Positions 26,813 to 44,107 of a stretch of DNA of 64,000 nucleotides are shown here, piece after piece (within the stretch, counting starts at the first letter, position 1; every line of letters starts with the position of its first letter). The notes below the pieces were generated by a model that made no database searches, had not been told where the DNA came from, and was given only the letters and a program-made list of their open reading frames with translations. The stretch is from Mesorhizobium sp. M4B.F.Ca.ET.058.02.1.1 (lineage in GTDB: Bacteria; Pseudomonadota; Alphaproteobacteria; Rhizobiales; Rhizobiaceae): NCBI RefSeq assembly GCF_003952505.1, contig NZ_CP034450.1, forward strand, positions 930,001 through 994,000, written 5' to 3'. A program made the position numbers and the translations under genes.

Positions 26813-26863
26813 TTTGGTGAGCGCGATGGGATTCGAACCCATGACCTACTGATTAAAAGTCAG
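26813..26863. repeat. attL: 51-bp copy of the tRNA-Lys 3' half
   Basis: Identical over 51 bases to 44057-44107. It contains the encoded CCA end (26815-26817 on the minus strand), the acceptor and T-arm and the anticodon arm of tRNA-Lys up to the anticodon stem. It is not a functional tRNA because the D-arm half is missing. Confidence 0.92.
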
Positions 26864-27006
26864 CCAAAAGCCATTTTCCGCAAACCCTTGCGCCACAAGG
26901 CTTTGACCGTGTCCGCACCACAAGCCCTTGATTTACAAGGCGACGCTGTTTGACAAATCAGCGACAGCAGACGACACTGAGCGTCACAGGTAGACATTAC
27001 GGGGAC

Positions 27007-27024
27007 GGACACGGGCGCGGACAC
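27007..27024. promoter_or_regulatory. GGACAC repeats near attL (candidate integrase arm sites)
   Basis: GGACAC occurs at 27007-27012 and 27019-27024, 12 bp apart, just before the integrase start, with one inverted copy at 26909-26914. Three more copies lie just inside attR. Paired clusters at both ends suit integrase arm-type sites. Confidence 0.4.
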
Positions 27025-27030
27025 AAATCC

Positions 27031-28389
27031 ATGGCACACAAACTCACCGACACCATCATCAAAAGCTTGCCGAAGCCGGCAAAGGGCAACCGGATCAGCT
27101 ATGACAAGTCCGTGACGGGACTGGGCGTGCGCGTCACGGCGGCTGGCGGGCGAGCCTTCATCCTCAACTACCGCACGCGCGCCACGGGCAAGGAGCGCCG
27201 CTACACGATCGGCTCTTGCGACGACTGGAAGATCGGCGCCGCGCGCGAGGAGGCCAAGCGGCTCAAGCGCCTGATCGACAAAGGCGAGGACCCGCTGGCC
27301 AAGCTCGAAGAAGAGCGCGACGCCAAGACGATGGCCGACCTCTGTACGCGCTACGAGGAGAGGCACCTCGACGCGAAGAAGAAGCGGCCCTCGTCCGTCG
27401 TGGACGACAAGGCCATGATCCGCGATTACATCCTGCCGAAGCTTAAGGAAAAGAAGGTCGCAGATGTCCACTCCACGGACGTCGAGGACCTGCACGCGGC
27501 GATCAGCAAGCGCGGCACGAGCGGCCGGCCGGCACGCTATCGGGCAAACCGCGTGGTCGCGCTGCTCAGCAAGATGTTCAGCCTCGCGCTCAAATGGGGC
27601 TGGCGCGACCATGCCGCCGGCAACCCGGCCAAGGGCATTGACCGCAACACCGAGGCGAAGCGCAAGCGGTACCTGTCGGCCGCCGAGCTGGAGAGCCTGA
27701 CAGCCGCCCTCACCGCGCACAAGGACCAACAGGCCTGCAACATCGTCCGGCTCCTGCTCCTGACCGGCGCGCGGCGCGACGAGGTCGAGAGCATGCGCTG
27801 GAAGTACTTCGACGCCGCCGAGGGAACCTGGGCAGGTGTCGACCTCGACGCCGGCAAGTGGACCAAGCCGGCGTCGACGACGAAGCAGAAGGGATGGCAC
27901 GAGGTGCCGCTGTCGGCTGCTGCCCAGTCGCTGCTGGCCGGCCTGCTCGCGCAGGCGCAGGGAGAGCTGAAGAAGGGCGAGAAGCTGTCCGACTACATTT
28001 TCCCGGGCCGCGGCGGGAAAGGCCATCGCGAGGAGATCAAGACCCAGTGGCGCGAGCTTTGCATTGCGGCCGAGCTGGTCGACGTCACGACGCTCGCCAA
28101 CGGGAAGACCAAGGTCACACCGAACGTGCGCATCCACGACCTGCGCCACACCAACGCCAGCGTGCTGGTCAGCAAGGGGGTGCCGCTAACGATCATCGGC
28201 AGGATGCTGGGCCACAGCCAAGTGAGCACCACGGCCCGCTATGCGCACCTGTATGACGATCCGCTGCGGGAGGCGGCAGAACTCGCCAGCGCGGCCCTTG
28301 CGCCTGTGAAGCCGGCGCCAGAACCAACTCCGGAGGACCCTGAGCCGGCTGGCGCCAATGTCATCCCGATAAAACAGAGGAGGAAATGA
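27031..28389 (+). CDS. int: Tyrosine-type site-specific integrase
   Basis: A 452-aa recombinase of the P4/IntS type. It begins with an N-terminal DUF4102-like domain (MAHKLTDTIIKSLPKPAKGN..YDKSVTGLGVRVT), then a SAM-like core-binding domain (about 100-190) and a catalytic domain with LLLTGARRDEVESMRW (first Arg), HDLRHTNASVLVSKG (His-x-x-Arg), GHSQVSTTARYAHL (His and the nucleophile Tyr). ATG 27031 starts at the family's usual N-terminus; the upstream extension in frame contains att sequence. It lies next to attL, as expected. Its stop overlaps the next gene (ATGA). Confidence 0.95.
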   Translation: MAHKLTDTIIKSLPKPAKGNRISYDKSVTGLGVRVTAAGGRAFILNYRTRATGKERRYTIGSCDDWKIGAAREEAKRLKRLIDKGEDPLAKLEEERDAKTMADLCTRYEERHLDAKKKRPSSVVDDKAMIRDYILPKLKEKKVADVHSTDVEDLHAAISKRGTSGRPARYRANRVVALLSKMFSLALKWGWRDHAAGNPAKGIDRNTEAKRKRYLSAAELESLTAALTAHKDQQACNIVRLLLLTGARRDEVESMRWKYFDAAEGTWAGVDLDAGKWTKPASTTKQKGWHEVPLSAAAQSLLAGLLAQAQGELKKGEKLSDYIFPGRGGKGHREEIKTQWRELCIAAELVDVTTLANGKTKVTPNVRIHDLRHTNASVLVSKGVPLTIIGRMLGHSQVSTTARYAHLYDDPLREAAELASAALAPVKPAPEPTPEDPEPAGANVIPIKQRRK

Positions 28390-28571
28390 CCGTGACGACA
28401 CTGCAGCAGGCCGCAGCGGCCCTGATGGAAGCGATGCAGGCCGAGGCGGACCTCGCCCGGGCGAAGGATCACGCGCTCCTTGAGGCGCTGGCGAAGAGGA
28501 CCCCGAAACGGCGCCAGCTGGAACATCAGGCCCCGACGCCCGAGGACCGCTCCGAAGAGGCTGCGCGGTGA
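28386..28571 (+). CDS. Small hypothetical protein after int (61 aa)
   Basis: Starts within the int stop (ATGA), giving translational coupling. The protein is Ala/Glu-rich and helical (LQQAAAALMEAMQAEADLARAKDHALLEALAKR) with a charged tail. It might be a coiled-coil partner of the integrase or of the following gene. No family is recognised. Confidence 0.6.
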   Translation: MTVTTLQQAAAALMEAMQAEADLARAKDHALLEALAKRTPKRRQLEHQAPTPEDRSEEAAR

Positions 28572-28822
28572 TGGTCGGACAACTTCTCGGCACGACGCCT
28601 ATCCGGCCCGGTTTGGAAAAGGCCTACGATGCCGCAGTCCTCTTCGAGGCGAGGAACCCCGCATGCACACTGCAGGAGGTCGCGCAACACTTGCTCGACG
28701 AGGAAGTGCTGCCGGACTGGTGCGCCTCGGGGTGGGCCGCCGAAGCCGCGGTAGCGGAATGGCGGTCGTTCTGGCACTACCTGGCAAACATTGTTCAGTA
28801 CCGTAGCTGGATGGCGCACTGA
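28571..28822 (+). CDS. Small hypothetical protein (83 aa)
   Basis: Starts in a TGATG overlap with the preceding gene, so int and two small genes form one unit ending at the terminator 28851-28879. The protein is acidic with several Trp (LPDWCASGWAAEAAVAEWRSFWHYL) and a segment ACTLQEVAQHLLDEEV that could be a helix-turn-helix. It could be an integration accessory factor; this is inference. Confidence 0.6.
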   Translation: MVGQLLGTTPIRPGLEKAYDAAVLFEARNPACTLQEVAQHLLDEEVLPDWCASGWAAEAAVAEWRSFWHYLANIVQYRSWMAH

Positions 28823-28850
28823 TCGGAGCGGTAGGCCATCTAAAACTGAC

Positions 28851-28879
28851 AAAAGAGCGCCCACGGGGCGCTCTTTTTT
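28851..28879 (+). terminator. Rho-independent terminator after the int operon
   Basis: Perfect 8-bp stem GAGCGCCC-ACG-GGGCGCTC followed by six T; four A precede the stem. It lies 28 bases after the stop at 28822. Confidence 0.9.
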
Positions 28880-29000
28880 GTTTTCGGCGCGAGCTCGTAG
28901 CCCCGCTGCCGAGGCGTTTTAGTCCAGAGCAGCCTGTTGATCGGTCCAGAATCCAGCACACGGCGGCAACTTATCCGCTAAGCTACTGATTTCATTCATA

Positions 29001-29026
29001 GTCCCTGGGAGGTACCTGCCAGGGAC
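29001..29026. promoter_or_regulatory. 26-bp near-perfect palindrome
   Basis: GTCCCTGG-G-AGGTACCT-G-CCAGGGAC is symmetric at 24 of 26 positions. It lies 105 bases before the small HTH gene, in a 308-base gap without genes (28823-29130). It is a candidate operator for a regulator of the element. Confidence 0.55.
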
Positions 29027-29052
29027 CATGGACGACATCTCCGGACTAAAGG

Positions 29053-29095
29053 ACATTTCACGGCACATGCCGGCGACAGCTAGAGCCGGAAATGT
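29053..29095 (+). promoter_or_regulatory. Structured leader before the HTH gene
   Basis: Nested inverted repeats: ACATTTC (29053-29059) with GAAATGT (29089-29095) enclose CCGGC (29070-29074) with GCCGG (29085-29089, sharing one base). The hairpin would lie in the 5' leader of the HTH mRNA. No known riboswitch was recognised. Confidence 0.35.
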
Positions 29096-29130
29096 GGACC
29101 TCGAACAGACAAGGACCCCCGGAGAGAAAG

Positions 29131-29352
29131 ATGAACGCCCACGACATTATGACGGAGTACGTGACCCAGTCTCAGCTGGCGGCAGCGCTGGGCCTCACGA
29201 CCAAGACACTGCAGCGCTACGGACAGTTGCCCGACGGGCTCCCCTCCCTCCGCCTCGGCGGAAAAACCCTTTATCGCGTGAGCACCGTTCGCAACTGGAT
29301 CGCTAAGCGCGAGACCAAGCCGAATCCGCGCCGGGCGGGGTCGCCACGATGA
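29131..29352 (+). CDS. Small MerR/AlpA-like HTH protein
   Basis: A 73-aa protein starting at ATG 29131 behind GGAGAGA. The helix-turn-helix is visible in VTQSQLAAALGLTTKTLQRYGQLPDGLPSLRLGGKTLYRVSTVRNWIAKRE, the layout of AlpA/excisionase-type proteins used by satellites and islands to control excision or replication. It overlaps the next gene by four bases and heads the replication module. Confidence 0.72.
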   Translation: MNAHDIMTEYVTQSQLAAALGLTTKTLQRYGQLPDGLPSLRLGGKTLYRVSTVRNWIAKRETKPNPRRAGSPR

Positions 29353-29459
29353 CCGCCGCGACGCTGCTGGTCGCCCTGGCTGCGGGAGCCGCGACAGGGC
29401 TGCTGATCAGCGCCGTGGTCACCCTCACCGAAACCAAGGGTGGCGCCCGCCGTCGCTGA
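29349..29459 (+). CDS. 36-aa single-pass membrane peptide
   Basis: An ATGA overlap with the HTH gene sets the start. The peptide has one hydrophobic helix, TLLVALAAGAATGLLISAVVTL minus its edges (residues about 4-25), and a basic end GGARRR. It is too short for common gene callers. The overlap with the gene before it makes translation plausible; the role is unknown. Confidence 0.5.
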   Translation: MTAATLLVALAAGAATGLLISAVVTLTETKGGARRR

Positions 29460-29497
29460 CACCGGGCCTCACCGAACCGAAGGCGGAAACCATTCCA

Positions 29498-29875
29498 ATG
29501 ACCATCCCCGATCTCGACGCTTGGCGGGCGCTCTGCCCGTTCATTATCTGGCGCGACAGGACCGGCCGCGAAGTCCTCGCCAACCGCCTGCACGTTCCGA
29601 TCCTGCAGCGATATCGCGGTGTCGCGTCGGTCGCCGATCCGACAGAACAGGTAGCATGGGTCGAGCGCGAGCTGCTCTGGCACGGCGACGCAAACGCCCC
29701 GTGGTCGGCCACGGTCGGCGCCACGGCATCGCTTGCCCGCGTCAATCGCATGCTCGCTCAATGGGGCCTGCCGGCGCTGCCAAAGCCACCTCGGCCGGGC
29801 GCCAGCCCAAGGGGCGCTCGGGCCGACAGCGCGCAGCCTTGGGCCGCGCATTTCCGGCAGAAGGCCGCATCCTGA
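29498..29875 (+). CDS. Hypothetical protein (125 aa)
   Basis: Soluble protein with Trp-rich segments (LDAWRALCPFIIWRDRTG, QVAWVERELLWHGD) and a Pro/Arg-rich C-terminal tail. It ends one base before the next start, within the replication operon. No family is recognised. Similar small genes usually accompany primase genes in islands; a link to replication is inference from position. Confidence 0.6.
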   Translation: MTIPDLDAWRALCPFIIWRDRTGREVLANRLHVPILQRYRGVASVADPTEQVAWVERELLWHGDANAPWSATVGATASLARVNRMLAQWGLPALPKPPRPGASPRGARADSAQPWAAHFRQKAAS

Positions 29876-29876
29876 A

Positions 29877-30599
29877 ATGGTTTACGACCTCGCGCAGCGC
29901 GTGACAGTGCCGCCGCTCCTGAAGGCCGAGTTCGCCAAGGCGCGCGACACGGTCGAGCACGCGCGAGGCTGGCGTCGCCACCAGGCGGCGCGCCTGCTGG
30001 CCGAAGACTATGGCTACCGCAACGGCTGGCGTCTCCCGGCCCGGCCCTTGTCCTTCTGTCTGGGGCAACTAGAGCGGCGATCGAACCAGACACGGCGCAG
30101 CGAGATCGGCTACCCGCAAGAGGGGTTTGAAAAACCGATCTTCTATCGCGCCGACGGGCGGCCGGCGGCGATCGTCGCGCATCCCTACCACATCGACGAG
30201 CGGCAGCTGGCCGGTCTCCGCGAGCGGTATCTGCTACGCTTCGAAATCGACGCGACCTACCCGGCATGGCTCGCGCTCGGGCTCGGCGCGAAGCTGCTTG
30301 TCATCACGCCGGACGATGAGCGCATCGCCGCGCTCGACGCCGAGGTGGCGCGTCTGCAGGACACCTACCTCAAGGGCTCGCTGGCCGCTTGGCGCGCGCA
30401 TCTGCGCGGCGAAGGCATGCCGATGACGGTCGGGCGGCGCGGCGGCCACGCCGCGCCCGGCTTCGGCTCGATCGCGCCGCACGATCCCGAGCGGGCCGCC
30501 CAGCGGGCCGCCTTTTTCCAGCGCCAACAACCCCGACAGGAACGCGCCGCCGTGGAACAGCGAACGCAACTCAGATTTTTCAGGAAACCGGACCAATGA
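29877..30599 (+). CDS. Hypothetical protein (240 aa), replication operon
   Basis: Starts one base after the previous stop and ends in an ATGA overlap with the primase gene, so it is firmly in the operon. The sequence has a basic N-terminal half (VEHARGWRRHQAARLLAEDYGY) and a middle FYRADGRPAAIVAHPYHIDE, followed by a helical segment and a Gln/Arg-rich tail. No catalytic motif is recognised. Tight coupling to the primase suggests a replication accessory protein. Confidence 0.65.
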   Translation: MVYDLAQRVTVPPLLKAEFAKARDTVEHARGWRRHQAARLLAEDYGYRNGWRLPARPLSFCLGQLERRSNQTRRSEIGYPQEGFEKPIFYRADGRPAAIVAHPYHIDERQLAGLRERYLLRFEIDATYPAWLALGLGAKLLVITPDDERIAALDAEVARLQDTYLKGSLAAWRAHLRGEGMPMTVGRRGGHAAPGFGSIAPHDPERAAQRAAFFQRQQPRQERAAVEQRTQLRFFRKPDQ

Positions 30600-33145
30600 A
30601 CGCCATGGCCAAAACCACCCCTCTCAGCCCCACCGAAGTGCGCCTGCGCGTGAAGGCCCACGGCTACTCGCCGCTGCCGAACAAGGCGAAAGAGTGCGTC
30701 CTGCGGGAGTGGCCGACGGTCGAAGCCACAGAGGAGCTTATCACCAAGAAGTGGAGCCGGATGCTCGGATGCACCGCGACCGGCATCCGCCTCGACGATG
30801 ACCTCGCCGTCATCGACATCGACGTCGATGACGAGGTGCAGATCAAGAACATACTCAATCGACTTTATGACGCTTTTCCCGACACGCTCGGCAATCCCGA
30901 CGTGCCGCTGCTGATCCGCCATGGCGGCGGCGCCAAGCTCGCCATTTTCATCCGCACTGACGAGCCGTTCAGCCGCATCGCCTCGCGTGGCTGGACCAAG
31001 CCCGGCGAGACCGTCGACGACGGGGTCCACAAGGTCGAAATCTTCTCCAGCGCCTCGGCTCGCCAGTTCGGTGCCGTCGGCCCGAGGAGCTTCGCCAAAG
31101 ATGGCAGCATCGAGACCGAGTACAGGTACAAAGACCGCTCGCCGCTCGACACGCCGAAGTCCGCGTTACCCCTCGTCACTAAGAAGCGGTGTTTCGAAGT
31201 CGCCGACATCGTCGAGGAAGTGCTCGACGCCGCCGGCTGGTCGCCTGTCGAGCGGACCACCAAGGGCGAGAGTTCCGTCGAAGCCAAATACGATCTCACC
31301 GAGGATATGAAGTTCGATTGCAAAGACGGCGTCACTCGCACGCTGGCCGAGCTGCCCGACGCGGCGGCGGCATGGCGGGTCGCCGGTCAAACCCTACGCT
31401 GCTCGGCGGCGTGGCTCGAAGGGCCGGGCGCCAAGAAAACAGAGCGATGCATCATCGGGCTCGACCACGCCGGCAACGTGTTCGTTCACGAGTTCACGAC
31501 CGGCAACCACTACCCGGTGTCGGCCGCGCCCGAGGCCCGCGACATCAAGGTCACCGATCTGGCGCAGAAGCTGAAGGAAAAGGGCTATGCGCCGCCGCGC
31601 CTGATCCAAGTCAAGGCCGGCGCGCTGCACGAGTTGGCAACCGAGGCCGAGCAGGCGCTGCTCGAAGCTCATGCGCCTTTTTACGTGCACGGCGGCGCGA
31701 TCAAAAGGCCCGTGGTCGAAGAGGTCGAGGCCTCGCACGGGCACAAGACCAAGGTTGCCCGGCTCACGCCAGCGACCCCCGACATGATGCGCGATCATCT
31801 CAGCCGCGTGGCGAACTGGGAAAAGTACGACCTGCGCAGCAAGAAACTCGTGCCGACAGACCCGCCTCGCGACGTCGCGGCGACATTGCTGGCGCGCGAT
31901 GGCGAGTGGAAGCTGCCGAAGCTCGTCGGCGTCATCACCACGCCGACGCTCCGGCCCGACGGCACCATCTTGAGCGAGCCGGGCTACGATCCCGAGACCC
32001 GGCTGCTGCTCGTCGAGCCGCCGATGCTGCCGCCGATCCCCGACCAACCGACCCGCGACGCCGCGCTCGCCGCGCTCGGCACCCTCGACGCCCTGCTCGC
32101 CGAGTTCCCGTTCGTGAACGACGCCAGCCGGTCGGTGGCGCTGTCAGAGCTGATCACGCCCGTCGTTCGCGGCGCAATGACGCTGGCGCCGCTCCACGCG
32201 AACACCGCGCCCGAGGCTGGGACCGGCAAGAGCTACATCGTCGACATCGCATCCGCGATCGTAAGCGGGCAACGCTGCCCGGTGTTCGCGGCCGGGCACA
32301 CCGGGGAAGAGACAGATAAGCGCATCGGCGCCGCGCTCATGACAGGGCAGGCGCTGGTCTCGATCGACAACCTGAATGGCGAGCTCGGCGGCTCCAGCGT
32401 GTGCCAAGCGGTCGAAAGGCCCGTGGTCGACGTCCGCGTGCTCGGGCAATCCAAAAACGTGCGCGTCGAGAACCGGGCGACCTTCTTCGCCAACGGTAAC
32501 AACATCAAGCTTGTCGAGGACGTCGTGCGGCGCACGATCCTCTGCTCGCTCGACGCGAACATGGAGCGACCCGAACAGCGCGAGTTCAAGGCCAAGCCCT
32601 ACGACCTCGTCATCGCCGACCGTGGCCGCTACATCGCCGCCGCGCTCGTGATCGTGCGCGCCTACGTCGTGGCGGGATGCCCCGACACGCTGCCAGCGCT
32701 CGCCTCGTTCGAAGACTGGTCGCGGCTGGTCCGCTCGGCTCTGGTCTGGCTTGGCCGGGCCGACCCGGTCGAGACGCAGGAAGCCGCCCGGCGAGACGAC
32801 CCGAGCAAGAACCTGTTTCGACAGTTCGTCGCCTCTTGGCGCGAGACCAGCGGCACCGACCAGCAACTGACCGCCACCGAGCTGAAGAAGCTGGCGGAAG
32901 AGAAGACCAATATCAGCCCGTTCGAACCAAAGCATCTCGAACTGCACGCCGCTCTCGTCGCTATCGCGGCGCCGCCCGGCCGCGGCGAAATTAGCGCGCT
33001 ACGGCTCGGGGTGTGGCTCGGCGAGCGCTTCGGGCAAATAGTTGACGGCGTGAAGCTCCACGGCGGCAAGGACAAGCACACAAAGGTCAACGTGTACTGG
33101 CTGACTGAGACGGCGCCGCATGGTAGCGGCGCTGGCGAAGGGTAG
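30596..33145 (+). CDS. Prim-pol / helicase replication protein
   Basis: An 849-aa protein. The N-terminal part (about 1-160) resembles a bifunctional primase-polymerase: LAVIDIDVDDE with D74 and D76 as motif I, LLIRHGGGAKLAIF as motif II and KVEIF (E148) as motif III. After a middle region, an ATPase domain shows Walker A EAGTGKS (K545) and Walker B-like ALVSIDNL (D591), then a sensor-like VRVENRATFFANGNNI. This is the one-protein primase-helicase design of plasmids and phage satellites. ATG 30596 overlaps the previous stop. The candidate origin begins three bases after its stop. Confidence 0.85.
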   Translation: MNAMAKTTPLSPTEVRLRVKAHGYSPLPNKAKECVLREWPTVEATEELITKKWSRMLGCTATGIRLDDDLAVIDIDVDDEVQIKNILNRLYDAFPDTLGNPDVPLLIRHGGGAKLAIFIRTDEPFSRIASRGWTKPGETVDDGVHKVEIFSSASARQFGAVGPRSFAKDGSIETEYRYKDRSPLDTPKSALPLVTKKRCFEVADIVEEVLDAAGWSPVERTTKGESSVEAKYDLTEDMKFDCKDGVTRTLAELPDAAAAWRVAGQTLRCSAAWLEGPGAKKTERCIIGLDHAGNVFVHEFTTGNHYPVSAAPEARDIKVTDLAQKLKEKGYAPPRLIQVKAGALHELATEAEQALLEAHAPFYVHGGAIKRPVVEEVEASHGHKTKVARLTPATPDMMRDHLSRVANWEKYDLRSKKLVPTDPPRDVAATLLARDGEWKLPKLVGVITTPTLRPDGTILSEPGYDPETRLLLVEPPMLPPIPDQPTRDAALAALGTLDALLAEFPFVNDASRSVALSELITPVVRGAMTLAPLHANTAPEAGTGKSYIVDIASAIVSGQRCPVFAAGHTGEETDKRIGAALMTGQALVSIDNLNGELGGSSVCQAVERPVVDVRVLGQSKNVRVENRATFFANGNNIKLVEDVVRRTILCSLDANMERPEQREFKAKPYDLVIADRGRYIAAALVIVRAYVVAGCPDTLPALASFEDWSRLVRSALVWLGRADPVETQEAARRDDPSKNLFRQFVASWRETSGTDQQLTATELKKLAEEKTNISPFEPKHLELHAALVAIAAPPGRGEISALRLGVWLGERFGQIVDGVKLHGGKDKHTKVNVYWLTETAPHGSGAGEG

Positions 33146-33147
33146 TT

Positions 33148-33286
33148 CTGCGGGTAGTTGCGTATAGTTGCGGGTATCGTTTTGCTCAAACGCAGCAAAC
33201 TGTCAGTGGTAATACACGCCATCCGATATGACAGTTACGTTGAGACGGCTGGAATGATACCCGCAAGCCTCCGCAACTACCCGCAG
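33148..33286. other. Candidate replication origin: concentric dyad with four iterons
   Basis: Arm CTGCGGGTAGTTGCG (33148-33162), 5 bases, TTGCGGGTATC (33168-33178) is mirrored exactly by GATACCCGCAA (33256-33266), 5 bases, CGCAACTACCCGCAG (33272-33286). The octamer TGCGGGTA thus occurs four times, two per strand, each pair 20 bp apart. An inner repeat AACTGTCA (33198-33205) / TGACAGTT (33229-33236) shares the same axis at 33217. It starts three bases after the primase-helicase gene, as the origin does in SaPI-type satellites. Confidence 0.7.
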
Positions 33287-33701
33287 CCGTTTGAAATATC
33301 GCGACCGTCGCGTGCTGGAGCACATGCGAGAGCGACCGCTGTGCCTGTCGCATGCTACGCGGACGTGCCCGAGCCGCCGGCACGCCTGCCGATCGTTGTA
33401 GCCAACGGAGGGCCGCCGGCAACGAATTAAGGCTCACCTTTCTCTATACTCCCTAAAGAAAGCAGTTGCGCCAGGCCGCCGGGTGCGTCTCGACGACGGT
33501 CTTGCGTCCAGCCGCCCTCCCTGCTAGGAATATAGTCCTCGGCATCGCTCTGGTATCCCGGTTTCCGCCGCCATGCCAGACCCGACCCGGGAAAGCGTCC
33601 TCCGCTCTGGTTCGGTGCGCGGAGGCCGCACCATTGGGCGGCCCTGCTCCCTTCGGTAAGGAGCGGGGCCGCCACCCCCATCGAAAGGACGCTCCCAGAC
33701 C
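33287..33701. other. Gene-free stretch after the candidate origin
   Basis: Frames on both strands lack ribosome sites and protein-like composition. A short inverted repeat GCTCC-N9-GGAGC is at about 33645-33663. The promoter of the next gene is presumably here. Confidence 0.4.
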
Positions 33702-34313
33702 ATGGCGCGCGGACGAGGAAGACCCCCGAAGTTCTCCGAAGAGCAGGCGTTCGCCGCTGCTAAAGCCGGCGGCGGCATGTTCGCGATCGCCGATCGTCTG
33801 GGCGTCGACCGGCGTACGCTGGTCAAATGGCAGAACAGGCACCCCGGTTTTAAAGAGGCTGTAGAGAGGGGCCGCAAGGCTGACGCCGAGAAGCCGACCC
33901 AGGAGCAATACGAGGCCGCCGTCGACCTCCATGAGCGCGCGCAGTCGCTGCGCTCGCTGCTGGCCGACCTGACGCCGCCCGAACCCGCCAAGCCCGATCC
34001 TCGTGACGCCGAGCGCGCTGCAGAGCTGAAGACCGAGGTCGAGAAGATCGCGCCGAGGCCGCTCTCACCCAACCCCGACCGGCTTGACGTTGCGGTGATG
34101 ATCGCGGCGGCGGCGAAACCCTCGATCGCCCGGAGCAGGCGCGGACCGGAGCCGCAGGCAAGAGCAGAGCCGACACCGGAGCACCGGCCGCCCAGACGGA
34201 CAGCCTCGCCAGCAACTGACGAAGACACGCCGGAGCTGCCCTCGCCCGATGACGCATGGCGACGGCGTTTCGGCAACGGCGCGGAGTTGCAAGACCCGCG
34301 CAGCGGATGGTGA
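33702..34313 (+). CDS. HTH protein resembling a terminase small subunit
   Basis: A 203-aa protein beginning MARGRGRPPKFSEEQAFAAAKAGGGMFAIADRLGVDRRTLVKWQNRHPGFKEAVERG when read in pieces: an AT-hook-like GRGRPPKF, a helix-turn-helix (residues about 25-48) and a helical segment. This opening is typical of phage small terminase subunits and related HTH proteins. The C-terminal half is Pro/Arg-rich and probably disordered. No large terminase gene follows. In satellites a small terminase redirects packaging of a helper phage; that role is a hypothesis here. Confidence 0.55.
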   Translation: MARGRGRPPKFSEEQAFAAAKAGGGMFAIADRLGVDRRTLVKWQNRHPGFKEAVERGRKADAEKPTQEQYEAAVDLHERAQSLRSLLADLTPPEPAKPDPRDAERAAELKTEVEKIAPRPLSPNPDRLDVAVMIAAAAKPSIARSRRGPEPQARAEPTPEHRPPRRTASPATDEDTPELPSPDDAWRRRFGNGAELQDPRSGW

Positions 34314-34462
34314 CAAGTTCGCGACAAATAGCGACAACAGCCATCAACTGATAAGTAATCAGAGGACATCTGACGACAACCAACTGATTTCTTTCTATTT
34401 TTCTTGTGCTAGGGATTTATTCCTGTATTGTGTCCGTTGGTAGTCCACCGGAGCACCGAAAA

Positions 34463-35929
34463 ATGTCCCCTTCCAACCGTGACCGCCTGCTCGCCGATCT
34501 CGCCGACGACAACGACGAGAATGGCCTTGGCGACGGGCTTAGCGATGGTCTCGAAGACGACAACGAAGGCGGCGCGCCCGCCGCGCCAGCTATGCCGCCG
34601 TCGTCGTCGACAGCCCGCCCGGCGCCCTCCGAAGACGATGACGAGGGTTACACGTCCGAAGCCCAGCAACGCGCCGCCGAAGGTAAAGCCACTTTGCGGC
34701 CGCCCGACGTGAGCAATCTCTCCGCCCTGCCCCTCGACGAGCTGCTGAGGGCCCTCGTCAACGCGACCAAGCCGAAGCGCCGCACACGTGGGCTCAACGC
34801 CGATGCCCTCCTGCGATCGAAGCAGATTGACCGCATCGCTGCCAAGCTCGCCAGCACCGAGAAAAATCTCGCCGCGCTCGAAGCCCGCCGTGCCGACGTC
34901 GACGTGCTCGACGATCGGGCGCTGAACACCTTCCAACGGCAGCTTACGGACGCCGAGGCGACGATCAAGACCTTGCGCATGGCCCACGCGGCCCATGTCG
35001 GCATCCACGAGCGCGAGAGCGCCGAGGAAGCCCGGCAGGCTCTGGAAACCAGTACGCGCACGACAATCGCCAATCACGCCGCACAATACGCCGCAGGCCT
35101 TCAGGAGCTCCATTTCTACGCCGCCCAGATCGTCGCCCTCGGCGCCACTCTCGACGACCACAGGCAGGCCATGGAAGGTGCTTCCTACGTCGCCCGCGAG
35201 CGGGGCCAGCCGGAACTCGCCTTCGATCCGGAAATCCTCCGCCGCGCCGTCTGCCGCCTCTTTGAGACCGAGCCGAAGGCGGCCGTGATGCCCGAACGCT
35301 GGGGCGAGACCGATGAACAATGGCACAAGCGCCTGTTTCAGACGCTGCAAAGCCACGCCGAAGGCCGCATTCGCGGCGACGATCGCGACCAGCGGAACCT
35401 GAGGCAGGATAGGCCGCGCATTGAACGGGCCAGGAAACTCTATGTCGAGCGCGGCGACGACGAGGACGACACCGCGTACGGCCTGCGCCAGCTGGCGCAC
35501 CTTGCCGAGCAGCTGCCGTGCCGGCAGGCCGAAGGCGAGAGCGACAGCGACCACATGGCCCGGCTGCTCGGCGTGCTGGCGAAGACGCTGGGCATCACCC
35601 GCCAGGGCGAAAGCGACAGCGCCTATCTGCTGCGCGTCGGCAATGCCCGCGCCATTGCCGCCGACCGCATCGGCGACGTGCTCGACACGACCGGTCAGAA
35701 GGCGATCCCGACCATTGAGGTGCATTGCTCCAGCCCGGCGACCGCCGAGCGCCTGCGCCGCCAGCGCGGTCACCAACGCCTTGTCGGCGAGTTGGACCCG
35801 TGGGCCGGCGGCCAAAAGGTCTCGGTCCACAGCCGCATGACCGTCGCGCCGCCGCCCCGGTCCCTGCCGCCATCGCAACCGCTGCCGTCGTGGGTGCAGG
35901 ACGACGTCGCCCGCTTCGGCGACAGCTAA
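34463..35929 (+). CDS. Large hypothetical protein (488 aa), coiled-coil centre
   Basis: Not recognised. The N-terminal 75 residues are highly acidic and low-complexity (DDNDENGLGDGLSDGLEDD). Residues about 110-230 are predicted to be long helices (KQIDRIAAKLASTEKNLAALEARRAD) likely forming a coiled coil. A duplicated segment is visible: DEDDTAYGLRQLAHLAEQL, ESDSDHMARLLGVLAKTLG and ESDSAYLLRVGNARAIA are degenerate repeats. No signal peptide or membrane helix. ATG 34463 is an inferred start in an AT-rich leader. Position after a terminase-like gene suggests a structural or scaffold role, unproven. Confidence 0.7.
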   Translation: MSPSNRDRLLADLADDNDENGLGDGLSDGLEDDNEGGAPAAPAMPPSSSTARPAPSEDDDEGYTSEAQQRAAEGKATLRPPDVSNLSALPLDELLRALVNATKPKRRTRGLNADALLRSKQIDRIAAKLASTEKNLAALEARRADVDVLDDRALNTFQRQLTDAEATIKTLRMAHAAHVGIHERESAEEARQALETSTRTTIANHAAQYAAGLQELHFYAAQIVALGATLDDHRQAMEGASYVARERGQPELAFDPEILRRAVCRLFETEPKAAVMPERWGETDEQWHKRLFQTLQSHAEGRIRGDDRDQRNLRQDRPRIERARKLYVERGDDEDDTAYGLRQLAHLAEQLPCRQAEGESDSDHMARLLGVLAKTLGITRQGESDSAYLLRVGNARAIAADRIGDVLDTTGQKAIPTIEVHCSSPATAERLRRQRGHQRLVGELDPWAGGQKVSVHSRMTVAPPPRSLPPSQPLPSWVQDDVARFGDS

Positions 35930-35941
35930 TGGAGAACTGCA

Positions 35942-36172
35942 ATGCCAACCGCAAACAACCGCTTCAACGCCTTCAACTCTAGCCTCGCCACGCTCGCCAG
36001 ACAGTCGGGAGCGCCTGAAGACCGCACCGCCGCCATCCGCGCGGCTCATGAGCAGGCCCGGCGTGACGAGCTGGCGTGGCCGGCGAGCAAGGCGAAAGTT
36101 CCGCCACCCAACGGCAACCAGGACCTGACCCTGCAACAGCTCAACGCGCTGGCGATCGGCCCCAACACATGA
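35942..36172 (+). CDS. Hypothetical protein (76 aa)
   Basis: Starts 12 bases after the 488-aa gene behind GGAGA, so it is in the same unit. The protein is polar, Ala/Asn/Gln-rich, with NNRFNAFNSSLATLARQSGAP and LTLQQLNALAIGPNT. No domain is recognised. Confidence 0.6.
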   Translation: MPTANNRFNAFNSSLATLARQSGAPEDRTAAIRAAHEQARRDELAWPASKAKVPPPNGNQDLTLQQLNALAIGPNT

Positions 36173-36204
36173 CGTGCTTCGTCTGATCCGGAAGTTCGAC
36201 CACC

Positions 36205-36492
36205 ATGGCCGTCATCACGAAAAGGGGTTTCCCGCCAGTCGCCGCCACCATCGGCTCGTATGCCGCGCAGTTTGGCGGCCCGGCTGGCGCTAATGGCGTC
36301 GTCCTCGACGACGCCATTCAGCCGCGGAACGGCAGCAACCAGACGCGGCTCGAATACCTCCTGCAGGGGCCCGACAGCGGCGATGCCGGTGCCCGCTTCA
36401 ACTGGCGTTCGATGTGCACAGTCACGCCAGTCGAGCAGATGGTGCGAACGCTGCTGCCTTACATGCCACCCCTGACAAGACCTTCCCGCTGA
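36205..36492 (+). CDS. Hypothetical protein (95 aa), possibly truncated
   Basis: Continues the plus-strand unit, 32 bases after the previous gene. It opens MAVITKRGFPPVAATIG and has ARFNWRSMCTVTPVEQMVRTLLPYMPPL before an abrupt end. The sequence character changes just after its stop, where the less GC-rich right module begins, so its C-terminus may have been cut by a recombination junction. No domain is recognised. Confidence 0.5.
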   Translation: MAVITKRGFPPVAATIGSYAAQFGGPAGANGVVLDDAIQPRNGSNQTRLEYLLQGPDSGDAGARFNWRSMCTVTPVEQMVRTLLPYMPPLTRPSR

Positions 36493-36541
36493 GCTTGCAA
36501 CAGCTGGCGAGCCGCGCGCATGTGCAGCGACGGGTGGACTT

Positions 36542-37033
36542 TCAGAACCGATCCCTGCCGAACTTTTCCCTGATATACTCGATCGGTGACCGAACGCGCC
36601 TATGTGTCATCCGCATGTAAGGCTCGAATATGGAAGGCATTTGCCTCAGGAATTCGTCTGCCTCCCGCAGCCGTTGTTGATTTCGATCAGTCTTTGCGGT
36701 TGTGTCGTCGTCCGGGTACATTCGCTCAGGCTGGGATAGTGGTTCGAATTGTCTAACCAGCTTCGCGAATGAGGAAATTCTGGCGAAAGCGTCCGGGCCA
36801 AAAAGAAACTTTCCTTCAAGTATTCCTTCACGAGTTAGGAGTTGGCATTCTTCGCCAGCTTCCTTGTTTGTCACGAGCGATAGAGCAGCTGTCTCAAGCT
36901 TGGAGTAGACCGCCTGTCGACGGTCGAAAAGATCGAGCAGTACCTTTTGATGCGCTGTCCTCCATTGAAGGAATGCGATGATCGCAACAGCTATGCCGAT
37001 TGTTGGCGTGAGAAGCGCAGCCAGAGTCTGCAT
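36542..37033 (-). CDS. Membrane-anchored hypothetical protein (163 aa)
   Basis: N-terminal transmembrane helix (LLTPTIGIAVAIIAFLQW) followed by a cytoplasmic helical domain with KVLLDLFDRRQAVYSKLE and FARISSFAKLVRQFE. The pattern of one helix plus FDRR..VY resembles many orphan bacterial proteins of unknown role found beside islands. ATG 37033 follows GGGGAAGGGAACA. It is downstream of the XRE gene in the same direction. Confidence 0.65.
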   Translation of the reverse strand: MQTLAALLTPTIGIAVAIIAFLQWRTAHQKVLLDLFDRRQAVYSKLETAALSLVTNKEAGEECQLLTREGILEGKFLFGPDAFARISSFAKLVRQFEPLSQPERMYPDDDTTAKTDRNQQRLREADEFLRQMPSIFEPYMRMTHRRVRSPIEYIREKFGRDRF

Positions 37034-37107
37034 TGTTCCCTTCCCCAAAGTTGGATCGACGTGGCGATCAGCATCCCATCGCCGGCACCGTGAGCTTCGG
37101 TATCTCG

Positions 37108-37320
37108 CTATTCTTCCTCCGACAATAAATCCATCGGCCTTACGCCTATTGCTTCAGCGATCTGCCAGAGCGTAATGACCGTTGGGTTCCTTTTTCCCAT
37201 CTCCAATCCGCTTACGTAGGCACGGTCTACGCCCATTCGATCGGCGACCTCATGCTGCGTGAGGTTAGCCGCGATGCGGCAACGCTTCACGTTCTTCGCA
37301 ACGAGCTGACGCATGTCCAT
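37108..37320 (-). CDS. XRE-family transcriptional repressor
   Basis: A 70-aa single-domain Cro/CI-type HTH: NVKRCRIAANLTQHEVADRMGVDRAYVSGLEMGKRNPTVITLWQIAEAIGV in pieces shows the five-helix fold, with recognition helix RAYVSGLE. It has no ligand or dimer domain beyond that. It is divergent from the SEL1-repeat gene; a palindromic operator lies between, so both promoters are probably controlled by it. Confidence 0.85.
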   Translation of the reverse strand: MDMRQLVAKNVKRCRIAANLTQHEVADRMGVDRAYVSGLEMGKRNPTVITLWQIAEAIGVRPMDLLSEEE

Positions 37321-37339
37321 ACGGCATGCGTGGCGAATT

Positions 37340-37370
37340 GTGCACTTTAATGCGACGCACTATAGTGCAC
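37340..37370. promoter_or_regulatory. Palindromic operators between xre and SEL1 genes
   Basis: GTGCACT (37340-37346) and AGTGCAC (37364-37370) are inverted with 17 bases between. The right half is part of the perfect 12-bp palindrome GCACTATAGTGC (37357-37368). The site lies in the 72-base gap between divergent starts and is the natural binding site of the XRE protein. Confidence 0.7.
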
Positions 37371-37392
37371 CATACAATGGTGAGGGGCTGTC

Positions 37393-38595
37393 ATGTCTGC
37401 ACTAAAGAATCTCGCATGCCAGTTCGTGGTGCTGACGTTCTTTGCGTCCACTGCGTTATCCGCTGAGCAGGTGGACGAAGGGCCGCGCAATCTCGATCGC
37501 GCCGTGACCCTTTATCGGCAAGGAAATTTCGTGGGGGCGCTGTCCATTATCAGACCGCTAGCGACGTCCGGCGATGCCCGTGCAGAAACTTATCTCGCCA
37601 AGATGCTTCTCTCAGGTCAGGGTGTTCAGAGGGATGCGCCCGCTGGATTGGCGCTGTTGCGTGCTGCAGCTGATCAGGATTATCGCGAAGCAGAATTCCT
37701 GCTCGGGGCTGCATATGCGTCAGGAGAGCCAGGCCTACCGGTAGATTACGTGGAGGCCTTGAAATGGCTGATAATAGCTAGAGCCCAAGACGGGCTAGCA
37801 TACGGCATGCTGAGGGATCAGATGGGCGCCGAGAACGTGGCGACAGCCACTGCCAGGGCCGCGCGCTGGCGCGAAGACACCGACCGCAGAAAAGTGCAAG
37901 CTGCCTTGGCTCTCGGCAATAAGAATGAAGTTTCGGATTATCTTACCCGACTTGCTGATGAAGGCATACCAGCTGCCCAATATGAGCTGGGTTTGTTATA
38001 CGCCGCCGGAGTACCGGATGGCATCCCTTCGAAGAAGGTGCCAGGGTTGATGGATTTTCTACCGAATGACCGAAAGGCTGCAGAATTATTTCTTAGGGCG
38101 GCATCGTTAGGTTATCCGCCGGCTCAGTCGAGGTTTGGGGCAATACTTTACGAAGGTCGAGGAGTGACCGCCGACAAGGCCGAGGCGGCGAAATGGTTCG
38201 AAAAGGCAGCTGCCCAGTCGGAAGTCAGCGCGATGATTGCGCTGGCGGACATGCTAGCAGCGGGAGATGGTGTCCGACAGGATCAAGGTCGAGCGTTCAC
38301 ATTGTACAGCCATGCTGCGGGCAAAGGTGATCCAGCGGCAATGAAGGCGCTGGGCGAGAGTTATGCAAGCGGCAGGCTTACCGAGAGAGACACCAAGCTT
38401 GCGTATATGTGGCTCACTCTGGCCAGTCAAATATATAGAAAAGAGCTTGTTGAGGTCTCTGCAAAAGAGGCCGACCTAACCCGCCTTGGCTTGGTCGAGC
38501 TGATGTCCCAGGATGAAATAGATCGTGCCAAGAACGCCACAGACATGTGCTTGAGCACATACTACCAACAATGCGGGGCATCATCTCTTCAATGA
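37393..38595 (+). CDS. Secreted SEL1-like repeat protein
   Basis: A 400-aa protein with a signal peptide (residues 1-23, cleavage after ALSA) and repeated SEL1/TPR units: GDARAETYLAKMLLSGQGV, YREAEFLLGAAYASGEPG, PAAQYELGLLYAAGV, PPAQSRFGAILYEGRGV, VSAMIALADMLAAGDGV and PAAMKALGESYASGRL. Such proteins mediate protein contacts in the periplasm; specific role unknown. Base composition is lower in GC than the integrase-primase half. Start ATG 37393 follows GAGGGG. Confidence 0.85.
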   Translation: MSALKNLACQFVVLTFFASTALSAEQVDEGPRNLDRAVTLYRQGNFVGALSIIRPLATSGDARAETYLAKMLLSGQGVQRDAPAGLALLRAAADQDYREAEFLLGAAYASGEPGLPVDYVEALKWLIIARAQDGLAYGMLRDQMGAENVATATARAARWREDTDRRKVQAALALGNKNEVSDYLTRLADEGIPAAQYELGLLYAAGVPDGIPSKKVPGLMDFLPNDRKAAELFLRAASLGYPPAQSRFGAILYEGRGVTADKAEAAKWFEKAAAQSEVSAMIALADMLAAGDGVRQDQGRAFTLYSHAAGKGDPAAMKALGESYASGRLTERDTKLAYMWLTLASQIYRKELVEVSAKEADLTRLGLVELMSQDEIDRAKNATDMCLSTYYQQCGASSLQ

Positions 38596-38643
38596 GCGCT
38601 GCTTATGTTTGTGAGATTTTGACCGATCGATGTTCCGGTGCTC

Positions 38644-39477
38644 TCATCCGAAAGGCAGCTCAGCGCGTCGGTCCTGGCTAGCATAACGTCTCGCACGCCA
38701 CCCCATCGCCGTCGCGATCCAGTTTCCCGCCCAAGAGCAGTTCTGCAGATACCATTGGGCCTCGTCACACGAACTGATCTGCTTGCACGTCCGCCGCGGC
38801 TCGCATGAGTTGCCGCTCTGCGCGACCAGCTTGCGGCTGACGATGCCGAGCGGCTGGCTCGGCGGCGCCGCGCCGTCAGTGTGCGACGAGCGCCAGTCCC
38901 AAGGCGGTTCGAAGTTGCCGACCCAAAGACCGATCTTGGCCGCCTGCGCCTTCGCCTGCTGTGGTGCGTAGGAGCCAAGACTGTAGAGCGGCCAGTCGAG
39001 CGCTTGGCCATGCTCGACCATCCACGCCGCCACGCTGACGCCGTCGGCGCGCCGGCAGTCCCCGACGAAGCGGTGATAGCGATCCCAGGTCACGAACGTG
39101 CACTGCACCGGCCTCGATGCGGCCAGGAACGCATCCAGCGCTTCCGCCGATCGCCGGCCGCAAGGATATTCGAAGCCCTTGGCATCGTCGCAGTATTGTT
39201 TGCTCTCCGGCGCGTCGATCCCGTTGAAGCGTATCCGCTGCCCGTGGACTTCGATCGTGTCGCCGTCGATCACGGAGGCTACGCCGGCGATGGCGACCAG
39301 CTTCGGCTTAATCAAGTTCTGCAAATTGATTTCCGGTAGCGATCCGCTGTTATGCATGACAAATTGCGTCACCAAGGCCGCAAATGCGGCTACGGTCACG
39401 AACACAAGCCGCAAAGGCACAGCCGACAACCAGCGTGCTCGATTACGCTTAGTTCCGCTGCGCTTTCGCCAATGCAT
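38644..39477 (-). CDS. SNase-like nuclease, C-terminal excalibur motif frameshifted
   Basis: Membrane-anchored or exported thermonuclease. ATG 39477 follows GGGGGA. A hydrophobic helix (LVFVTVAAFAALVTQFVM) precedes an SNase domain with VIDGDTIEV, IRFNGIDAPESKQ and catalytic Arg/Glu region RSAEALDAFL, ending VGNFEPPWDWR. Near the end, NCSW is followed in frame by unrelated sequence; the next frame reads GGKLDRDGDGVACETLC and stops at 38678, the expected Ca-binding excalibur motif. One G is missing in the run at 38730-38732. The nuclease domain itself is intact. Confidence 0.8.
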   Translation of the reverse strand: MHWRKRSGTKRNRARWLSAVPLRLVFVTVAAFAALVTQFVMHNSGSLPEINLQNLIKPKLVAIAGVASVIDGDTIEVHGQRIRFNGIDAPESKQYCDDAKGFEYPCGRRSAEALDAFLAASRPVQCTFVTWDRYHRFVGDCRRADGVSVAAWMVEHGQALDWPLYSLGSYAPQQAKAQAAKIGLWVGNFEPPWDWRSSHTDGAAPPSQPLGIVSRKLVAQSGNSCEPRRTCKQISSCDEAQWYLQNCSWAGNWIATAMGWRARRYASQDRRAELPFG

Positions 39478-39607
39478 TAGGTATCCCCCGACACCGAACA
39501 CGATAATGCGCCTTCCACACTTTGTTGTCGAATCCATTGTTGGACAGGCTTGCGATTGGCCTTGCATTACGCAATGTTAGCAGCGGGTTAGAGGATTTGG
39601 GGGGACC

Positions 39608-39880
39608 ATGAAGCGATTTTCTTTGACCGCCGCTGCGTTTGTTTGCTTGGCGGGTTGTGCTACGCCACCGGACAAGATTGCAGGCGTGCCAAATGCGGGC
39701 CCTTGTACCCAGGCCGATAAAGAACGCTTGGCCGTTTTGACAAACCAACAGAACAAGGCCGCGACCGGTGACGCTCTCGGTGTGTTCTTGATTGGCGTTC
39801 CGGTTTCCTCGATGTCTGGCGGCGACCACGAAACCGAAATTGCCGTGCTGAAAGGTCGTTGTGGTCCGCCGAAAACCTGA
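39608..39880 (+). CDS. Small lipoprotein (90 aa)
   Basis: Signal peptide KRFSLTAAAFVCLAGC with lipobox LAGC, Cys17 as the lipidation site. The mature part is short with two more Cys (GPCTQ, GRCGPP) and a weakly hydrophobic GVFLIGVPVSSM. It would be anchored in the outer or inner membrane. Function is unknown. It is transcribed divergently from the nuclease gene. Confidence 0.75.
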   Translation: MKRFSLTAAAFVCLAGCATPPDKIAGVPNAGPCTQADKERLAVLTNQQNKAATGDALGVFLIGVPVSSMSGGDHETEIAVLKGRCGPPKT

Positions 39881-39923
39881 TGGTGACGGAGCGTCTCGGG
39901 TCAGAACATGAGGGGAATTCGCA

Positions 39924-40655
39924 ATGCCCGTGACGAGCGGTTCGGGTAATCCAAAGTGGACACGCGACGAGACCTTACTGGCGCTCGATCTGCTTTATCG
40001 GCATGGCAAGCCGATCGACAAAAATCACCCGGACGCTGCGGAGCTGTCGCGGCTGTTGCGGGCGGCAAACATCTACCCCCAGACTGACCGGAAAGAAAGT
40101 TTCCGTAACGCTGACGGCGTGGCGCTGAAGACGCAAAATCTGTTTTCTGCCTTGCACCCTGAGCGCCGATTGAGTTCTTCCGAAATGGACAGGACCGTCG
40201 TTGTCGAGTTCCCAGATAGCCGCAAGTTCGAACTGGCAGAGATAGCAGCCGCAATTCGACAGGCGTTGGTCGGCAACTCATCGGGCGAGACTGATGAAGA
40301 CGACGACCTTGAAGTCCCGGAAGGGAAGTACCTCGCCGCGCGTCATCGCCAGAGAGACCGGAGGCTCCGAATGCGGCTGATCGACAAGCGGCGTGCCAGC
40401 GGGCTGAGATGTGAAATCTGCGATTTCTCCGTGGACGCAAGCGCCCCTAAATCGACCGACAGCTTTTTTGAGGCCCACCACACAACACCGCTGGCCGCGG
40501 CAGAAGGCGAACGAACAACCCGGCTTTCCGACATGGCCCTAGTCTGCGCCTGCTGTCATCGCTTCATTCATCGGCTGATTTCTGACAACAAACGCTGGGT
40601 AGGGATTGCCGAAGCTGCACAGGCTTGGAAGGCTCTCGCACTTAGATCGTTGTGA
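39924..40655 (+). CDS. HNH endonuclease
   Basis: A 243-aa protein. The C-terminal half has a McrA-like HNH site: CEICDF (first Cys pair), FFEAHHTTPL (HH), DMALVCACCHRFIHR (Cys pair and final His). The N-terminal half (about 10-90) is a helical domain with KWTRDETLLALDLLYRHG and ALKTQNLFSA, found in other predicted restriction-like HNH proteins. It may be a modification-dependent restriction enzyme; target unknown. No methylase is adjacent, which favours a type IV-like role or a homing enzyme. Confidence 0.82.
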   Translation: MPVTSGSGNPKWTRDETLLALDLLYRHGKPIDKNHPDAAELSRLLRAANIYPQTDRKESFRNADGVALKTQNLFSALHPERRLSSSEMDRTVVVEFPDSRKFELAEIAAAIRQALVGNSSGETDEDDDLEVPEGKYLAARHRQRDRRLRMRLIDKRRASGLRCEICDFSVDASAPKSTDSFFEAHHTTPLAAAEGERTTRLSDMALVCACCHRFIHRLISDNKRWVGIAEAAQAWKALALRSL

Positions 40656-40686
40656 ATCTGCCTTACTATTTCTCTGGAGGGGTTGG

Positions 40687-40995
40687 ATGCGTCCCGTTTG
40701 CTTGATGGCGCTATTTTTTGCAGCGCCCGGAGTCGGCTGGGCACAGCAGCAGGAGATGGCCGCGCCGCAGCCGAGGTGCTGGCTAGGATCAATGAGCTAT
40801 TCGCCTGGAGCAACTGTTCGAGCCGGCGATAACGTTATGCTGTGTACGCCCGCGTTCGCTTGGGAACCGGCCACAAAATCCGCAGCGTCAGGGTGCATTT
40901 TCAAAAGTGAGTTTTATAATTCCGGCGCTGTGGTGAGCGGCAACGAATGCCAGCCCGACGGCACGTGGACGACAGTTTCTCCAGCTAAGCCTTAA
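40687..40995 (+). CDS. Small secreted protein (102 aa)
   Basis: Signal peptide RPVCLMALFFAAPGVGWAQ, cleavage near residue 19. The mature part has Cys in RCWLGS, MLCTPA, GCIFKS and NECQPD, suggesting two disulfides. ATG 40687 follows GGAGGGG. The pattern GATV.AGDN..LC..G.W resembles small periplasmic proteins of unknown role. No family is named. Confidence 0.65.
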   Translation: MRPVCLMALFFAAPGVGWAQQQEMAAPQPRCWLGSMSYSPGATVRAGDNVMLCTPAFAWEPATKSAASGCIFKSEFYNSGAVVSGNECQPDGTWTTVSPAKP

Positions 40996-41010
40996 GACGT
41001 GTCGTGCTGG

Positions 41011-41304
41011 TCAGGCGGTGCCTTCGGTCGAACTCTCCTCGTCCATCGCATGCGGCACCGGCAGATAGGCGTTAGCCATCAACCAATCGTCCAAGATGGT
41101 CTCGACCAGATCGAGCTTCCCTTTGCCCATCTCGGCGGCCAGGCCATTCAGCATCTCGTCGGTGCGCGGATCGAGACTGAGCCCGCCCACATTCCTGAGC
41201 AGCAGCGCAGCCCTTCGCAACAGCACTTGCAATTCGGCCCGCGAGGCGTCTGCTATGTGATCGGCAGTGCTTTCCAGTTCATGCACGAATTGATGACGGG
41301 ACAT
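41011..41304 (-). CDS. Hypothetical protein (97 aa)
   Basis: A small helical protein (HELESTADHIADASRAELQVLLRRAALLLRNVGGL) with an acidic C-terminus. The middle LDPRTDEMLNGLAAEMGKGKLDLVETILDDWL looks like a helical bundle. No family is recognised. It is downstream of the 58-aa gene on the minus strand with an 11-base gap, so the two are probably cotranscribed. Confidence 0.6.
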   Translation of the reverse strand: MSRHQFVHELESTADHIADASRAELQVLLRRAALLLRNVGGLSLDPRTDEMLNGLAAEMGKGKLDLVETILDDWLMANAYLPVPHAMDEESSTEGTA

Positions 41305-41315
41305 CGGTTACGCTC

Positions 41316-41492: not shown

Positions 41493-41572
41493 AAGCAACA
41501 GTGAACGAAATGAGAACAAAGCTGTCAAGCCGCCTCTTGACCAGAGCCGCCGCCGTTCCTCATTTCAGGGTA

Positions 41573-41891: not shown

Positions 41892-41937
41892 CTGCGGGAG
41901 CCTTTGCGGCTCTCGCAGCCAACTGCATGTCAAAAGC

Positions 41938-42498: not shown

Positions 42499-42527
42499 CA
42501 TTGGGTCCTTCCCTCCGCGTTAACACC

Positions 42528-43754: not shown

Positions 43755-43777
43755 TGTCCCCGCCCCACAAATAGCAA

Positions 43778-44056: not shown

Positions 44057-44107
44057 TTTGGTGAGCGCGATGGGATTCGAACCCATGACCTACTGATTAA
44101 AAGTCAG
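44057..44107. repeat. attR: 51-bp direct repeat inside tRNA-Lys
   Basis: Identical to 26813-26863. It forms the 3' half of the intact tRNA-Lys gene, showing that the element brought a replacement 3' end. Confidence 0.92.

Follow-up and report, generated by a model that had tools for sequence, protein, structure and literature searches.

What is the role of a conspicuous palindromic structure lying immediately downstream of a primase-helicase gene in a Mesorhizobium genome? The structure, a 139-bp dyad at positions 33148..33286, was identified in a stretch of 64,000 nucleotides from Mesorhizobium sp. M4B.F.Ca.ET.058.02.1.1 (contig NZ_CP034450.1, positions 930,001 to 994,000; referred to here as the window, with coordinates counted from its first letter). 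It is carried by a 17.2-kb element (26,813-44,107) similar to the phage-inducible chromosomal islands (PICIs). A previous interpretation of the DNA letters alone, the sequence-only reading, had proposed a new type of satellite or plasmid replication origin by analogy with the Staphylococcus aureus pathogenicity islands (SaPIs).

The features of the dyad and a survey of its relatives make it highly probable that it is the replication origin of this element and that it is bound by the element's own primase-helicase. The proposal of a new type is not supported: the layout has been published for SaPI/PICI (PMC6092414, PMC7581432), for the Streptomyces plasmid pWTY27 (PMC3583192) and as the stem-loop of pRN1 (PMC4234260). 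The putative origin is thus of the known SaPI/PICI and pWTY27 kind, in this case in a prim-pol/D5-like replicon. In this little-studied, satellite-like element of a Mesorhizobium-related genome the dyad offers a 139-bp target with its cognate protein, and the survey provides dozens of natural variants in which the geometry of the origin is kept while the recognition word varies.

Two symmetric shells after the primase-helicase gene

The stop codon of the primase-helicase gene ends at 33145 and is separated from the dyad by 2 bp. The outer arms pair over 15 bp (33148-33162 with 33272-33286) and, further inwards, over 11 bp (33168-33178 with 33256-33266). On each side these blocks are separated by a five-base spacer (33163-33167 and 33267-33271) in which one of the five positions happens to pair. 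Within the loop is an inner palindrome with 8-bp arms, AACTGTCA (33198..33205) and TGACAGTT (33229..33236), both given on the + strand, which pair with one another. The outer and inner axes coincide at 33217.0. Arm lengths, spacers and common axis had all been described in the sequence-only reading and are confirmed by these coordinates. Among the ungapped inverted repeats of the 64 kb with a span of up to 150, the dyad ranks first: it scores 19 and the next best 13. Eight or more consecutive pairs on the outer axis, as in the inner palindrome, arose in 7 of 20,000 shuffled loops, and the predicted fold (z -9.4 as RNA and -8.7 as DNA) was equalled by none of 200 shuffles in either form.

The outer arms are themselves repetitive. 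The octamer TGCGGGTA occurs at 33149 and 33169 on the + strand and at 33258 and 33278 on the - strand, and the sole further copy in the window is at 30111 (-). These five copies compare with 0.91 expected, and none of 100 shuffles contained at least five. The left arm (33149..33178, + strand) can be read as three 10-bp units, TGCGGGTAGT / TGCGTATAGT / TGCGGGTATC, and the right arm (33256..33285, - strand) as three inverted 10-bp units, TGCGGGTAGT / TGCGGAGGCT / TGCGGGTATC, the middle unit being degenerate in each. An iteron present twice per arm at 20-bp spacing had been noted previously: the octamer positions are correct, but the spacing is better read as two 10-bp steps across the degenerate middle unit. 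The region between the arms (33182..33252), the proposed site of melting, is AT-rich (50.7% AT compared with 38.0% for the element), a trend also found in the family.

Arrays downstream of related genes

Of 146 genomes searched in the genus with the single protein, 14 contained relatives of the primase-helicase gene. A search with the alignment found relatives in the family (11 of 297 genomes), the order (24 of 397) and the class (11 of 385), the genome under study being included in each case. Among viral contigs the single-protein search returned no match and the alignment search 67 loci. Relatives at E 0.001 were also present in 60 phage and 23 plasmid records, of which 3 and 10 respectively were taken into the survey. 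This gave 148 loci, 126 of them with a helicase match and a stop codon. Leaving out L002-L004 and loci with less than 240 bp downstream retained 121, and removal of 19 that were at least 90% alike left 102. In the 260 bp after the stop codon, an inverted repeat reaching the threshold score of 13 was present in 52 of the 102 loci. The same score was attained by 9 of 6,120 shuffles and by 10 of 1,965 windows taken elsewhere in these loci; at a score of at least 16 the figures were 41 loci, no shuffles and 2 other windows. The closest relative, L001, from the same genus and 79% identical, carries a diverged form of the dyad. Three of the four intact units (one left, two right) differ by TA to GG, the fourth has diverged to TGCAGAG, and AACTGTCA and TGACAGTT are unchanged. 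Absence of the dyad beside close homologues, which by the sequence-only reading would have refuted its inference, is thus not what was observed, and its proposal of an origin adjacent to rep, with iterons flanking a central region that here is AT-rich, is supported.

The 52 loci share a common anatomy. At least three copies of one 7-mer (with up to one mismatch) were present in both halves in 35 of them, as against 1, 0, 0, 0 and 0 in five shuffled sets; the window itself counts just 2 and 3 copies because its middle unit is degenerate. Of 207 iteron spacings, 167 are of 8-10 bp and 109 of exactly 9 bp. Since the loci were picked for an inverted repeat, the head-to-head order is not independent of their selection, whereas the tandem repetition is. 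The dyads lie a median of 11 bp from the stop codon, with a median span of 113.5 bp and a median centre of 62 bp; that of the window, with its 10-bp units and 139-bp span, is at the long end of the family (75th percentile, 137). The AT content of the centre is 0.506 compared with 0.385 for the locus, and exceeds the mean of the locus in 50 of the 52. In the 34 loci with a clear period, the similarity of partner units across the arms (0.93) exceeds that of units shifted by one (0.80), a comparison biased by the choice of the axis by score.

The very stable RNA fold predicted right after the stop codon could indicate a hairpin that closes the primase mRNA at its 3′ end and serves as an attenuator, terminator or stabiliser. 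In an RNA hairpin, G:U pairs would be expected among the mismatches between the arms; those of the 52 loci show no such preference (16 of G:U type, 19 of A:C type and 73 transversions). The arms consist of repeats in tandem, 8-10 bp apart, the loop between them measures 44-146 nt (5th-95th percentile, 52 loci), and in a simple scan the dyad showed neither promoter-like nor terminator-like sites. Furthermore, the related sequence of pWTY27 is bound as DNA by its Rep (PMC3583192). An RNA element is therefore very unlikely, and was rejected because of the missing G:U preference and the tandem-repeat arms.

The letters of the iterons are far less constant than their arrangement. There are 48 distinct 7-mer strings among the 52 loci, some being shifts of one word. 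TGCGGGTA occurs at least twice in 10 of the 102 loci, including an archaeal virus, and in 1 of the 1,965 other windows. The inner shell is in part recurrent: AACTGTCA occurs in 18 loci, more than any other 8-mer of the 102 regions (maximum in ten shuffled sets, 11), and both halves of the inner palindrome, with up to one mismatch, were found in 13 of 102 loci but in at most 2 in 20 shuffled sets. Taken singly, the inner repeats are mostly no longer than in shuffles. Of 50 loops (two of the 52 were left out for their length), 19 nevertheless have their best inner inverted repeat, whatever its letters, centred on the iteron axis, compared with a mean of 2.5 and a maximum of 7 in 300 shuffled sets. 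Selection by facing protein rings on double-stranded DNA would be expected to yield just this pattern, in which both levels are two-fold symmetric while the letters change.

Several loci, e.g. L022, L027, L029 and L033, have TTTCAGCC- or GGCTGAAA-like words, noticed by eye, just inside the iterons, and GGCTGAAA occurs in 14 of the 102 loci; these words could possibly form a third symmetric shell. The genes of L129 and L142 are followed by exceptionally long inverted repeats, with arms of 56 and 65 nt, which cover the iterons and extend beyond them.

Plasmids also carry gene and array: pA32H2, pMNOD06 and pWTY27. Replication of pWTY27 depends on repA, repB and 300 bp of non-coding DNA downstream of repA. 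Deletion of this stretch abolished replication, and the RepA footprint covers positions 405-447 and 462-509 (PMC3583192). The survey placed the arms at 405-426 and 481-502, within this footprint, before its coordinates were known to us. The pWTY27 locus also works in linear form, and replication was read as bidirectional by the authors (PMC3583192). Its Rep is related to the protein of the window (25.7% identity over residues 90-488 of a 516-aa query; tblastn E 3e-25), inverted iteron clusters follow the gene, and there is a long discontinuous inverted repeat, as in the window. The iterons are of 8 bp, the centre is unprotected, and the stretch is both essential and bound by RepA (PMC3583192). 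In contrast to the window, primase and helicase are encoded by separate genes, the iteron word is GTGGGAAC and the inner repeat is weak, 49 of 50 shuffles being as good.

The protein could instead bind the dyad as a control site of the same replicon, such as a copy-number or incompatibility locus or an operator, with replication starting elsewhere. Phage P4 has an ori plus a separate iteron locus, crr, and the lone TGCGGGTA of the window lies about 480 bp upstream of the ATG of the gene; both are points in favour of such a site. A second TGCGGGTA cluster is, however, absent from the window, and the loss of replication on deletion of the matching stretch of pWTY27 (PMC3583192) counts against a control site. 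We regard this explanation as improbable.

Weighing against the dyad being the origin, there is no inverted repeat reaching a score of 13 after the stop codon of 50 of the 102 dereplicated loci. The comparison with pWTY27 also calls for caution. When a 320-bp search window is used, the best repeat of pWTY27 is an outer pair at 338-569 around the footprint arms, and a 149-bp piece of pWTY27 including the footprint was insufficient for replication, for which the 300 bp are needed (PMC3583192).

The host element and its primase-helicase

The element is bounded by 51-bp direct repeats of the 3′ half of tRNA-Lys, which are 100% identical. The left attachment-site copy is at 26813..26863 and the right copy at 44057..44107, inside the higher-scoring tRNA-Lys (44059-44134). 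At up to three mismatches the attachment core has just these two copies in the window and no third, and the two tRNAs are the sole matches of the window to Rfam at gathering thresholds. The left flank, searched against 61 genomes of the genus, had matches in 60; many were to the 51-bp core alone and some to pieces of the flank short of the core.

A tyrosine integrase gene, with an uncertain start codon, is located at 26950..28389 (+; PF00589 E 1.9e-22; PF13356 E 3.5e-16; phrog_1 integrase E 2.3e-69). It is followed by a gene for a small AlpA/excisionase-like helix-turn-helix (HTH) protein (29092..29352, +; phrog_597 E 5.1e-8; phrog_66, excisionase and transcriptional regulator, E 8.1e-8), which also matches phrog_57, terminase small subunit, at E 5.1e-7 and Pfam HTH_17 below its cut-off. 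This protein is a candidate for the AlpA/MerR-type regulator of Gram-negative PICIs. The right part of the element carries less clear genes on both strands, including those for Sel1-repeat, nuclease-like, HNH and NYN proteins, and phage structural or lysis genes were absent from the subset of element open reading frames scanned. A short direct repeat, AGAGGATATGTAACATAT, at 42527-42584 near the NYN-domain gene (42920-43621) also forms the second-best inverted repeat of the window. G+C and AT skew shift near 36.5 kb within the window, and the segment 36500-44050 with the Sel1, SNase, HNH and NYN genes may have inserted at the same tRNA-Lys earlier or separately.

In L001 the integrase, primase-helicase, dyad and terminase small subunit (TerS)-like gene occur in the same order, one which agrees with the published PICI order (PMC6092414). 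Judged by its sequence, the element is a PICI-like integrative element: the integrase and attachment-site repeats of a PICI satellite are both present and the layout of the dyad matches that of SaPI/PICI origins, in keeping with the SaPI analogy and the satellite-like element of the sequence-only reading.

The TerS-like gene, which encodes a small HTH protein (33702..34313, +; phrog_309 E 8.1e-9 over residues 3-59), starts 415 bp downstream of the dyad and raises the possibility that the latter is a packaging (pac) site read by the adjacent product; a TerS-like gene follows the dyad in L001 too. The survey met the array after primase-helicase genes, proximity to terS having been checked in the window and L001 alone. 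Moreover, the array occurs on plasmids without a terminase-annotated gene, namely pA32H2 (6.5 kb with four annotated genes, the relative being annotated as a hypothetical protein) and pMNOD06 (for which the gene table is incomplete). A pac site is extremely unlikely.

The favoured initiator, a prim-pol/D5-like helicase of 849 aa from its ATG, is encoded at 30596..33145 (+) and assigned from profile and fold matches. It matches phrog_29234, a family of unknown function, at E 2.2e-165 and phrog_19930, DNA polymerase/primase, at E 1.8e-19, and its match to Prim-Pol PF09250 (17.2 bits) is below the cut-off of 22.8. Its structure model (mean pLDDT 69.7) gave four Foldseek matches at E of at most 0.001, ASFV PrimPol (the best) and poxvirus D5/E5, with E from 3.9e-5 to 7.6e-4 and low TM-scores to the query (0.22-0.27). 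A sequence search against solved structures gave a single, meaningless match (E 0.92). The model predicts a winged-helix arrangement for the C-terminal domain. With this domain alone, a fold search gave no match at E 0.001, and among the 50 VIA-align matches listed no replication initiator was evident, a result which excludes nothing. The alpha protein of phage P4 is a primase-helicase that binds iterons through a C-terminal winged helix, as the 849-aa protein may do, but its primase is of the TOPRIM type; no TOPRIM family was detected in the 849-aa protein at E 0.01.

In a matrix-permutation test on the 52 loci, iteron similarity tracked the C-terminal domain (0.34; partial value 0.176, 9/999) and the helicase (0.33; partial value 0.158, 38/999) almost equally, and the test therefore favours neither as the iteron reader. 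Identical iteron words follow genes whose C-terminal domains are 10-32% identical in the listed pairs: TGCATAGG is common to L024, L142 and L094, and TGCGGGTA is shared by L005 with L022, L023, L032, L039, L129 and L109. Convergence, exchange of modules or reading by another domain are possible explanations.

For the dyad as origin, we infer the binding by the primase-helicase, the binding domain, the number of hexamers, the sites of melting and priming, the direction of replication and the continued replication of the element. The protein would bind the iterons through its C-terminal domain, and the two arms of three units, set head to head, would seat two hexamers facing one another, with the AT-rich centre and the coaxial inner palindrome between them. 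The helicase would melt this centre, the prim-pol domain would prime, and the host polymerase would copy in both directions.

Relationship to known origins

SaPI/PICI origins resemble the dyad in their position directly 3′ of the initiator gene and in their iterons flanking an AT-rich centre (PMC6092414, PMC7581432). The C-terminus of SaPI Rep recognises the iterons (PMC6092414; PMC7581432), and the Rep of SaPI5 has likewise been termed D5-like (PMC7581432). The element of the window differs in its probable archaeo-eukaryotic prim-pol with a D5-like helicase, and in a strict head-to-head symmetry and coaxial inner palindrome which go unmentioned in the available passages on SaPI/PICI origins (PMC6092414, PMC7581432). 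More generally, the regularity formed by three units per arm, a coaxial inner palindrome and an interchangeable word was not found described in the available passages of PMC4234260, PMC3583192, PMC6092414 and PMC7581432.

pRN1 combines a prim-pol, SF3 helicase and winged-helix protein with a stem-loop of about 100 bp 3′ of the gene, whose structure is kept while its sequence drifts (PMC4234260); the three domains may have counterparts in the 849-aa protein. The stem-loop is required, and is sufficient together with the replication operon (PMC4234260). BPP-1, kin of a phage offered as a parallel in that paper (PMC4234260), yielded on search a 9-bp inverted repeat alone and no iterons. According to its authors, the pRN1 origin is also without iterons (PMC4234260). 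However, TGTCCA occurs twice at 9 bp in each 21-nt arm of pRN1 (L149, 5084-5183), a periodicity which is weakly significant (425 of 20,000 shuffled arms were as periodic). The pRN1 stem-loop may thus be a version of the same design with two units.

These comparisons suggest, as a tentative proposal that we consider possible rather than probable, a widespread class of origins with a fixed geometry and a freely rewritten word. With three iterons per arm at a spacing of about 9 bp, the arms head to head and an AT-rich centre and coaxial inner palindrome between them, such origins would serve two facing prim-pol/D5-like hexamers in bacterial and archaeal phages, satellites and plasmids. The pRN1 stem-loop would be a reduced form. 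Since the word would change in several units together while the geometry stays, related elements would be mutually blind. With the family of natural variants two questions become testable: the way in which a self-loading primase-helicase recognises its iterons, and the possibility that pRN stem-loops are disguised iteron origins.
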